A program made the position numbers and the translations under genes. The notes under the pieces are model-generated. The model made no database searches. It was not told the origin of the DNA and saw nothing but the letters and a program-made list of their open reading frames with translations. Positions 33,714 to 37,497 of a stretch of DNA of 37,497 nucleotides are shown here, piece by piece. The stretch is from Microcaldota archaeon. Lineage in GTDB: Archaea > Micrarchaeota > Micrarchaeia > Micrarchaeales > Micrarchaeaceae. Numbering within the stretch: the first letter of the stretch is position 1; each line of letters starts with the position of its first letter. The DNA is taken from the NCBI GenBank assembly GCA_021798935.1, contig JAJZBL010000001.1, positions 193,292 through 230,788 on the forward strand, given 5' to 3'.

Positions 33714-34040
33714 ATGATTGGAGAAGAATTTAAGGAAGAAGGCTCACTTTCACTAAATGAAGTATACGAAATACTTTCTAAGCGAAAAGAAGGGTCTGAG
33801 CTTTCATATGAACAGAAAATGACATTGGAATATGTAGAGAAATTTAAAATTCCTGAAGCAAAGTTCAAAAAGATAAAAAGTGATCTGGAAGCTATGGAAC
33901 TAAGCAGCAACCTGATAAACAAGCTATTGGAGTTGGATCCTAAAAACTCAGAAGTAATAAAGTATGCGGCAGCGAGTAACCACGTTACTTTAGAAGAAGA
34001 TCAAATAAATAAAATACTCTCCGAATTCAAGAGCGTGTAA
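33714..34040 (+). CDS. rpoF: RNA polymerase subunit F (Rpb4 homolog)
   Basis: The 108-aa protein fits archaeal RpoF: L-S-L-N-E-V-Y-E-I-L near the start, S-Y-E-Q-K-M-T-L-E-Y, and an HRDC-like helical end, with E-V-I-K-Y-A and a short K-I-L tail. RpoF pairs with RpoE (Rpb7) to form the polymerase stalk. A GGT motif precedes the ATG. It is followed 40 bases on by the DUF655 gene, a common archaeal gene pair. Confidence 0.85.
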   Translation: MIGEEFKEEGSLSLNEVYEILSKRKEGSELSYEQKMTLEYVEKFKIPEAKFKKIKSDLEAMELSSNLINKLLELDPKNSEVIKYAAASNHVTLEEDQINKILSEFKSV

Positions 34041-34080: not shown

Positions 34081-34662
34081 ATGGAAATTCAAGAAAAACG
34101 TGAGGATTATGCAGTTGTTATTGACTACATGCCCACTGGAAAGTCTTTTTCTACAAGAGCAGAGCCAACATTGCAATTAGTTGGTACTGAGAGATTTACA
34201 TTATTAGAAGCAAAGCCAAAACCAAATACTACATTTTCGATAGGCGAAAAGGTTTATATTGGAAAGAACGAAAGGGACAAGATAGAGATTATAAAATCAC
34301 GTATTTCGTATGATGAATTAACGCAAACAGCAAAGGAAAATCTCATGTCCGTGCTTGAGAAGCTTGTGAAAGACAACGAGCAAAGATATGTAGACTTCTT
34401 CAACAATGCAAAGCCTCTCAATATAAGGCAGCATTCACTAGAACTACTACCAGGAATAGGCAAAAAGCATCTCCAAGCAATCTTAAAAGAAAGAGCAGTA
34501 AAGAAGTTTGAAAGCTTTGAAGACATAAGCAATAGGATAGAACTTCTACAAGATCCATCAAAACTTATAGTGGAGAGGATATTAGACGAATTAAAAGGAA
34601 ACGAAAGGTTCTACCTATTTACAAAACCCTTTGTAAAAAGGACAGAACAATTTGGAAGATAA
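34081..34662 (+). CDS. DUF655 nucleic-acid-binding protein
   Basis: The 193-aa protein has an N-terminal OB-like beta domain (Y-A-V-V-I-D-Y-M-P-T-G-K-S, G-E-K-V-Y-I-G-K) and a C-terminal helix-hairpin-helix around L-E-L-L-P-G-I-G-K-K-H (about 117-127). This is the DUF655 layout, a conserved archaeal family next to rpoF and rpl21e. RNA or DNA binding is implied by the folds, but the exact role is unknown. It runs as rpoF-DUF655 with a 40-base gap and meets inverted rpl21e one base after its stop. Confidence 0.88.
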   Translation: MEIQEKREDYAVVIDYMPTGKSFSTRAEPTLQLVGTERFTLLEAKPKPNTTFSIGEKVYIGKNERDKIEIIKSRISYDELTQTAKENLMSVLEKLVKDNEQRYVDFFNNAKPLNIRQHSLELLPGIGKKHLQAILKERAVKKFESFEDISNRIELLQDPSKLIVERILDELKGNERFYLFTKPFVKRTEQFGR

Positions 34663-34663
34663 A

Positions 34664-34948
34664 TTATATTTTTTCTAAATGCACTACAGGAACTACAAGT
34701 TTTCTTGTTGCATTCATTATTCTGACTCTTACTACATATGCAGAGCCTCTTTTCTCTATGACTTCACCTATCCTGCCCTTATATCTAGGGTGTGGTGAAT
34801 CCCTGTAATTACTTTTAGGCACTATTGCTACCTTATCTCCTATCTCAAAAGTCTTTATTTTATCAGCAATTGATAATGTGGATAATTTGTGATGCCTTAC
34901 CAAATTTCTTGTCTTTCCATGAAACTGTCCTCCAGATCTTTTTGTCAT
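34664..34948 (-). CDS. rpl21e: Large-subunit ribosomal protein eL21
   Basis: The 94-aa protein is eL21: M-T-K-R-S-G-G, K-T-R-N-L-V-R-H-H, then G-D-K-V-A-I and the P-H-P-R-Y-K-G-R-I-G block, and basic tail. A GGTAAT precedes the ATG. It normally precedes rpoF in the same direction in archaea; here it is on the opposite strand and tail-to-tail with DUF655, with one base between stop codons. Confidence 0.95.
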   Translation of the reverse strand: MTKRSGGQFHGKTRNLVRHHKLSTLSIADKIKTFEIGDKVAIVPKSNYRDSPHPRYKGRIGEVIEKRGSAYVVRVRIMNATRKLVVPVVHLEKI

Positions 34949-35157: not shown

Positions 35158-35508
35158 ATGCCAAAGAAAATTGAATCAAACGATTTAATATTACCTGATT
35201 TACCTCATAAAAAGAATGTGGAACTTAAGCCAACTTATAAGGTTGTGAATATAGTAGCAAGCGCAGATTTGAACACTGACCTCGACCTATATGGATTAGC
35301 AAAGCTTTCATTTGATATAGACTATGAACCCGAGCAGTTTCCAGGTGCTATATTGAAGATACATGATCCAAAGTCTGCGCTTCTACTGTTCAAAAACGGA
35401 AAAGTTATATGTACAGGGGCTAGGACAGAAGACGAAGTCCGTAGGTCCATAATGCAGGCAGTAGACCTTGTCAAGAAGTACCTTAAGCAATATGGAGGAA
35501 AATCCTAA
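35158..35508 (+). CDS. tbp: Single-repeat (half-length) TATA-binding protein
   Basis: TBP normally has two ~90-aa repeats forming a saddle on TATA-box DNA. This 116-aa protein has an N-terminal tail (1-25) and then exactly one repeat: V-V-N-I-V-A-S-A-D-L (29-38), Y-E-P-E-Q-F-P-G (56-63), L-L-F-K-N-G-K-V-I-C-T-G-A (76-88) and a helix (90-110). F61 and F78 fill the places of an intercalating phenylalanine pair, and N31 that of a groove-contacting Asn. CTGA and the following R-R-S-I-M-Q-A-V look most like repeat 1 of archaeal TBPs. The stop codon TAA is clean and no TBP-like sequence follows in any frame. It could dimerise to give a symmetric saddle; a second, longer TBP elsewhere in the genome cannot be excluded. 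Confidence 0.9.
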   Translation: MPKKIESNDLILPDLPHKKNVELKPTYKVVNIVASADLNTDLDLYGLAKLSFDIDYEPEQFPGAILKIHDPKSALLLFKNGKVICTGARTEDEVRRSIMQAVDLVKKYLKQYGGKS

Positions 35509-36431: not shown

Positions 36432-37497
36432 ATGAGCATTTTAAAATCCGATAAGTCAAATACGGTATTAATAAGTCAACTTAGGCTATTGAAGACCCTA
36501 TTTGCACTAATCCTATTTTCTTCAATCATTTACCTCTCTTATTCGGTTCAAATTGGCTATGCTTCATCTACAATGGCTGCTTTAAGTAACAATAGCCAAA
36601 TAAATTTAAGCAGTGTCTCTAATACTTTAATCGATAATAGCACCAGAGGACTTTTGCAAGATCCATTCACCGATCAAAAAAATAATAGCACTAGCGCTAC
36701 AAAGTTAATATCTGATCCATCATTCTCCCCACCAGGCTGTAGTTGGAATTTTTATTTGCTCTACTGGTCTTGGACTTGTTATGTAGAGATGAATGTATCG
36801 CAATCTGGATATGGAACTGCCACAGCTTCACCAGGTGGATCTACAACTAGCAATGCTACTTATAGTATATCTGCAGGTAGCTACGGAACACATGCTAGTT
36901 ATTCCGTAACTATATCAGAAAAACCTTCAACCGGCTATGAATTTACTGGTTGGACCTGCAGCGGCAGCGGCTGCTATTCAGGTACTAATCCATCTGACAA
37001 AATGAATGGTTTAAGCAGTTCTATAGAAGAGACTGCCAATTTCAAACTTATACCTGAAACTTTGACTATGAATGTTAACCCTTCTTCAGGAGGAACAACA
37101 AACCCATCTGTCGGTACTCATACGTACAACTATGGAACTTCTGTCACTATATCCGAAACTCCATCAACTGGATATGAATTTACTGGTTGGACTGGGAGTG
37201 GAAGTGGCAGTTATTCTGGAAGTGCTACATCTACAACCATAACAATGGACAACGCAATAACAGAAACTGCCAATTTCAAACTTATACCTGAAACTTTGAC
37301 TATGAATGTTAACCCTTCTTCAGGAGGAACAACAAACCCCTCTGTCGGTACTCATACGTACAACTATGGGACTTCTGTCACTATATCCGAAACTCCATCA
37401 ACTGGATATGAATTTACTGGTTGGACTGGGAGTGGAAGTGGCAGTTATTCTGGAAGTGCTACATCTACAACCATAACAATGGACAACGCAATAACAG
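36432..37497 (+). CDS. Secreted InlB-type repeat protein, 3' end beyond the window
   Basis: An open frame runs from the ATG at 36432 through the window end (355 codons). Residues 1-45 are a basic start and a hydrophobic segment (F-A-L-I-L-F-S-S-I-I-Y-L) ending near I-G-Y-A, a signal peptide or anchor. A Ser/Asn-rich linker follows with a C-x(12)-C region (C-S-W-N-F ... W-T-C-Y). Then come repeats with V-T-I-S-E-x-P-S-T-G-Y-E-F-T-G-W-T: the Divergent InlB B-repeat pattern, typical of extracellular adhesin-like proteins. The first unit has C-S-G-S-G-C, lost in the later ones. The last two 78-aa units are nearly identical at DNA level, so copy number is probably variable. Confidence 0.88.
   Translation, partial: MSILKSDKSNTVLISQLRLLKTLFALILFSSIIYLSYSVQIGYASSTMAALSNNSQINLSSVSNTLIDNSTRGLLQDPFTDQKNNSTSATKLISDPSFSPPGCSWNFYLLYWSWTCYVEMNVSQSGYGTATASPGGSTTSNATYSISAGSYGTHASYSVTISEKPSTGYEFTGWTCSGSGCYSGTNPSDKMNGLSSSIEETANFKLIPETLTMNVNPSSGGTTNPSVGTHTYNYGTSVTISETPSTGYEFTGWTGSGSGSYSGSATSTTITMDNAITETANFKLIPETLTMNVNPSSGGTTNPSVGTHTYNYGTSVTISETPSTGYEFTGWTGSGSGSYSGSATSTTITMDNAIT
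37030..37497 (+). repeat. Two near-identical 234-bp tandem repeats
   Basis: The sequence from about 37030 to 37263 repeats from 37264 to the window end with period 234 (78 codons). I found only two base differences: CCA/CCC in the T-N-P-S segment and GGA/GGG in Y-G-T-S. Both are silent. The high identity indicates recent duplication or gene conversion, and the window ends exactly at a unit boundary. Confidence 0.9.

Follow-up and report, generated by a model that had tools for sequence, protein, structure and literature searches.

A half-size TATA-binding protein with a single repeat, probably acting as a dimer, in the Micrarchaeota

The gene at positions 35158..35508 (+ strand) of the window, that is, of the whole 37,497-nt stretch of DNA analyzed here, encodes a TATA-binding protein (TBP) of half the usual size. 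This observation is real and is larger than first thought, as a half-size general TBP occurs across much of the phylum Candidatus Micrarchaeota, and a second half-size gene is present in the window's own genome. We consider it likely that the encoded protein (A) is the orthologue of the general archaeal TBP in one-lobe form and that it acts as a dimer, and we infer that this dimer would bend DNA and recruit TFB.

The reading frame of A runs from ATG to TAA and specifies 116 aa. Against the Pfam TBP family PF00352, A scored 86.7 bits (E 9.7e-25) in one stretch only, which covered profile positions 2-85 of 85 and lay above the curated cut-off of 22.9 bits over the whole repeat; approximately half of each NCBIfam TBP model was covered, with scores far under the cut-offs. 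The Pfam boundaries and residue conservation placed a single TBP repeat at residues 27-108 (35236..35481, + strand; N31, V33, E57, E59, F61, F78, K82, and T86), instead of the two repeats per chain of ~180-200 aa that are the general archaeal format. The relatives of A in the PDB were TBPs without exception, with that of M. jannaschii (2z8u) at the top, and A aligned once to each of their two lobes. An alignment-based AlphaFold model from 24 homologues, which replaced a poor single-sequence model (pLDDT 38), reached a pLDDT of 84 (core ~94-96) and superposed on one lobe of 2z8u at 0.8 Å over 77 columns. No second TBP repeat was revealed when the six reading frames between 35100 and 37497, the last position of the window, were scanned with an HMM. 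Thus, the original prediction of a clean 116-aa protein with one TBP repeat, including N31, F61, and F78, a TAA stop, and no second repeat downstream in any frame, was borne out, and these three residues proved invariant across 181 aligned repeats. Compared with its counterpart in a genome of the same genus (G071), the gene differed at 48 nucleotides, yet only 4 amino acids were changed (dN 0.02, dS 1.04), which indicated strong purifying selection.

The functional surfaces of an ordinary lobe are retained in A. Every DNA-face residue tested (N31, V33, F61, F78, K82, and T86) was present in A, and essentially all were retained in the second half-size protein (B) and in the lone halves of relatives, the T86 position being Thr, or Ser or Ala in some relatives. 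We take these residues to be the minor-groove Asn and Val, the two intercalating Phe, and the DNA-face Lys and Thr. The pair E57/E59, invariant in A and the lone halves and also kept in B, corresponds to C.L3.2/C.L3.4, the acidic contacts to TFB (PMC7221094). In per-lobe fold, in minor-groove and intercalating residues, and in the TFB-contact glutamates, A resembles the canonical archaeal TBPs (M. jannaschii 2z8u, S. acidocaldarius 1mp9, and P. woesei 1ais); it differs from them in having one repeat per chain instead of two, in reading FKNGK where they have FxSGK, and in its DLY motif, and the repeats of its clade group with neither the canonical repeat 1 nor repeat 2. The closest sequence relatives of A are the two-repeat TBPs of Micrarchaeota families f3-f13 and of Diapherotrites, which share the FKNGK and DLY signatures and the gene locus but, unlike A, carry two lobes, 49-80% identical, in a chain of ~190-210 aa. 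Bacterial TBP-like domains (the RNase HIII N-domain and DUF3378) likewise have one TBP-fold domain per chain, but differ in function and are very distant in sequence, and A matched neither in the Pfam, NCBIfam, and PDB searches.

The window's genome (G000) is an 857-kb draft in 10 contigs, 96% complete. A search of this whole genome with PF00352 gave exactly two matches, namely A and the half-size B (119 aa; L002:1483-1842, - strand; match at C10:37988-38233), and no full-length, two-repeat TBP; a TBP too divergent for PF00352 might escape such a search, although this is unlikely given two closed genomes of the family. A and B are 48% identical over the repeat, and the B gene lies between a glycosyltransferase gene and a GGR-like oxidoreductase gene. 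The genome encodes a single, ordinary TFB with a zinc ribbon and two cyclin repeats, and one full TFB was also found in each of G071, G208, and G209. It had been proposed that A, if it were the only TBP of the cell, would act as a symmetric dimer, a view that would have been overturned by a frameshift hiding a second repeat or by a full-length TBP elsewhere. Neither was found, and a dimer of one-lobe chains is still the best reading; however, the genome search did find B, and because of this second half-size paralogue a symmetric A:A dimer and an A:B heterodimer are equally possible in this genome. The situation of an only TBP is realized instead in many of its relatives.

The loci related to A belong to Candidatus Micrarchaeota. 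Two culture genomes of the window's family (f1) are closed: that of 'Ca. Mancarchaeum acidiphilum' Mia14 (G071; 952,257 bp; circular chromosome published in PMC5498576), from the same genus as the window's genome, and that of Ca. Micrarchaeum A_DKE (G075, which carries the A_DKE TBP; 989,838 bp; circular chromosome published in PMC8975820). Each encodes exactly two half TBPs and no other TBP, and since both closed genomes show these same two halves only, assembly artifacts and incompleteness are excluded. Within f1, 80 of the 85 genomes gave a match, in nearly every case comprising a pair of separate ORFs with one repeat apiece. In the sister family f2, almost all genomes carry type A, B occurs in some genera only, and A stands alone in G208 (one 771,545-bp contig), G209 (97% complete), and further genomes. 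A single half TBP is the usual complement in families f14-f27, and families f3-f13 have a two-repeat TBP of ~190-210 aa. By our own count, a lone half TBP with no other TBP is found in 24 Micrarchaeota genomes of at least 90% completeness and at most 5% contamination. Beyond this phylum, half TBPs also dominate in another small phylum, represented by 19 genomes around G307, and both half and two-repeat TBPs are found in genomes named Diapherotrites. In the literature, we found no description of a half-size or single-domain TBP in archaea, though a passing mention may exist; TBP has been described as conserved in ~88.8% of DPANN genomes, with no comment on its size (PMC8407392).

Several individual genomes departed from these patterns. 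A full-length TBP on an 8.4-kb contig of the family genome G068 (L003) was not accepted as its own, as it probably represents Thermoplasmatales contamination; this TBP (L399, G068:C43) is of euryarchaeal type, and its contig shares cytochrome b, MFS, and transposase-like ORFs. Three half TBPs were observed in G174 (f15, 96% complete; L137, L138, and L139), two of them nearly identical and located away from the L21e locus described below. A very divergent single TBP-like domain (L141, G180:C12:19300-19539; 42 bits) was observed in G180, which also has an ordinary half TBP. In G349, which also has a two-repeat TBP, an ORF of 726 aa (L397; G349:C8, ~1964, + strand) contains four divergent TBP repeats, then a hydrophobic segment, and finally a tail of extracellular appearance, and is possibly a membrane-anchored TBP-like protein.

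The gene neighborhood of A is conserved across half and two-repeat TBPs alike. In the window, it comprises the genes for ribosomal protein L21e (34664..34948, - strand; PF01157), a DUF655 protein (34081..34662, + strand; PF04919), and the RNA polymerase subunit Rpo4 (Rpb4; 33714..34040, + strand; PF03874). These three genes adjoin the type-A halves in f1, in f2, and in further families with half TBPs, the two-repeat TBPs of f3-f13 and Diapherotrites, and also the halves of the phylum around G307; they were absent from the canonical-archaeal TBP loci examined (1.5-kb flanks). The locus shared with two-repeat TBPs indicated that, within this region of the tree, the half is by position the orthologue of the principal TBP gene. 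Further along the window, from 36432 to 37497, lies a large protein of secreted appearance that contains InlB B-like repeat units (PF18998) and runs past the window end.

Other explanations for the half-size gene were weighed against a dimer of one-lobe chains. An assembly or sequencing artifact, in which a frameshift or the loss of a second repeat had shortened an ordinary TBP, could be invoked for a draft genome in 10 contigs, but we rejected it as having practically no probability in view of the lack of a second repeat in any downstream frame, the strong purifying selection, and the single-repeat TBPs in ~80 family genomes as well as in the two closed culture genomes. It is also very improbable that the general TBP is something other than the half TBPs, with these symbionts using the TBP of the host or none. 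Mia14 and A_DKE do live with Thermoplasmatales hosts; nevertheless, the half TBPs hold the orthologous position and have invariant functional residues, the organisms have their own TFB and Rpo4, and lone halves are distributed over numerous families within the phylum and also occur outside it.

Two further readings concern the role of B. Gene fission could have split a TBP such that A and B represent lobes 1 and 2, respectively, of an obligate A:B heterodimer, and the near-constant retention of the pair in f1 agrees with this, as does the slight score margin by which f1 A proteins favored the canonical repeat 1 (17/18) and B proteins repeat 2 (20/20). However, these differences amounted to only ~4-6 bits, and the earlier impression that A resembles repeat 1 (95.1 vs 89.2 bits) holds only weakly. 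A tree arrangement of A with repeat 1 and B with repeat 2 was 13 lnL units worse, though not rejected (p-AU 0.32); A and B formed one clade (support 99) separate from the canonical repeats, and many f2 genomes, some at least 90% complete, have A without B. We thus regard a split TBP as unlikely. Alternatively, B may be a regulatory or promoter-specific variant, with A:A as the general factor and A:B as a second form. More than one TBP gene per genome is also found in haloarchaea (e.g., TbpA-F of Halobacterium), where each is a full two-lobe TBP. B arose before the split of f1 and f2 (clade support 100), has its own conserved locus between the glycosyltransferase and GGR genes, and is dispensable in several f2 genera, but a role beyond an accessory one is suggested by its retention across nearly all of f1; we consider such a variant a reasonable possibility, short of an even prospect.

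The history of the repeats was addressed with a tree of 181 single repeats. The repeats of Micrarchaeota and Diapherotrites, comprising the halves and both repeats of the two-repeat TBPs, were placed apart from the canonical repeats 1 and 2 (support 99). Forcing all repeat 1s together was rejected (delta lnL 101, p-AU 0.0005), with p values of 0.003-0.19 when the grouping was tested lineage by lineage, and the two repeats of any one lineage always grouped together with 99-100% support. This grouping of repeats with their own partners would fit re-duplication from a half, and would also fit homogenization between repeats. Gene conversion between lobes is directly visible in the two-repeat TBP of G369 (L422, G369:C31:18982-19503), where both repeats have in common a perfect run of 84 nt with diverged flanks. 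This conversion, together with a single duplication within Micrarchaeota that was not rejected (p-AU 0.21), weakened the claim of a clean re-duplication. Mapped on an AlaRS tree, five changes were needed between the half and full states, and the half may be ancestral to the branch, or a reduction may have been enabled by interchangeable lobes. We propose only tentatively, and with some doubt, that the general TBP of this branch is or long was a one-lobe homodimer and that its relatives re-made their two-repeat TBPs from the half, independently of the duplication behind ordinary TBP. At a contig end in G205 (L129, G205:C39), the contig opens with 99 nt that are identical to the 3' portion of that genome's own half TBP and are joined in frame to the complete repeat; this is a possible fresh tandem duplication of the half TBP or, alternatively, an assembly-graph edge, as 99 nt may be the k-mer size.

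Because a saddle is impossible from a single lobe, two half TBPs must pair across the lobe-lobe interface. We propose that two one-lobe chains would associate across the interface that joins both lobes of an ordinary TBP, that the four Phe (F61 and F78 of each chain) would intercalate into the TATA box and bend it, and that the E57/E59 stirrup would be offered to the one full-size TFB, which would set the promoter direction through its contact with the BRE, as is reported for archaea by Bell et al. in 1999 (cited in PMC4041446). In relatives with one gene, the dimer would have to be A:A, whereas in the window's genome A could partner A and/or the divergent paralogue B. We give an even chance to A:B being a regular partnership there, and the active unit may be asymmetric, B being conserved in nearly all f1 genomes. 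A symmetric saddle is nonetheless plausible, since YEPEQFPG occurs in both lobes of most archaeal TBPs, the lobes within this clade are similar, and TFB-BRE contact sets direction; the two repeats of the clade's two-repeat TBPs show a median identity of 66% (up to 77-80%), compared with 47% in other archaea, and such near-symmetric lobes in two-repeat relatives indicate that a near-symmetric saddle is functional. At promoters, W-rich boxes near -30 were sharp in two-repeat genomes and broader in G000, and they were present between -45 and -16 of 7/7 tRNA genes in the lone-half genome G208, for which the genome-wide background windows overstate significance. A claim of an unusually symmetric promoter box was dropped, as two-repeat genomes likewise show a peak of TTTAAA-type boxes near -30 and clear ORF-start sites were too few in the lone-half genome.

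To our knowledge, all TBPs described in textbooks have two lobes in one chain, an architecture attributed to the duplication of a half-size ancestor thought to be extinct. Here, entire lineages of living archaea yielded no TBP genes other than half TBPs, with sister TBPs of two lobes encoded at the same locus; the arrangement of a dimer of halves has long been proposed only for the ancient ancestor. This opens several questions to direct testing: whether bending of TATA DNA and recruitment of TFB are within the capacity of a symmetric one-lobe dimer, what share of promoter polarity comes from TBP asymmetry, and whether the halving and re-duplication of a core transcription factor are reversible. 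Two of the half-TBP species are in laboratory co-culture. If the general TBP of this branch is indeed a one-lobe homodimer from which relatives re-made their two-repeat proteins, it would correspond, among living organisms, to the ancestor proposed to have existed before the duplication, and the duplication itself would have been replayed.
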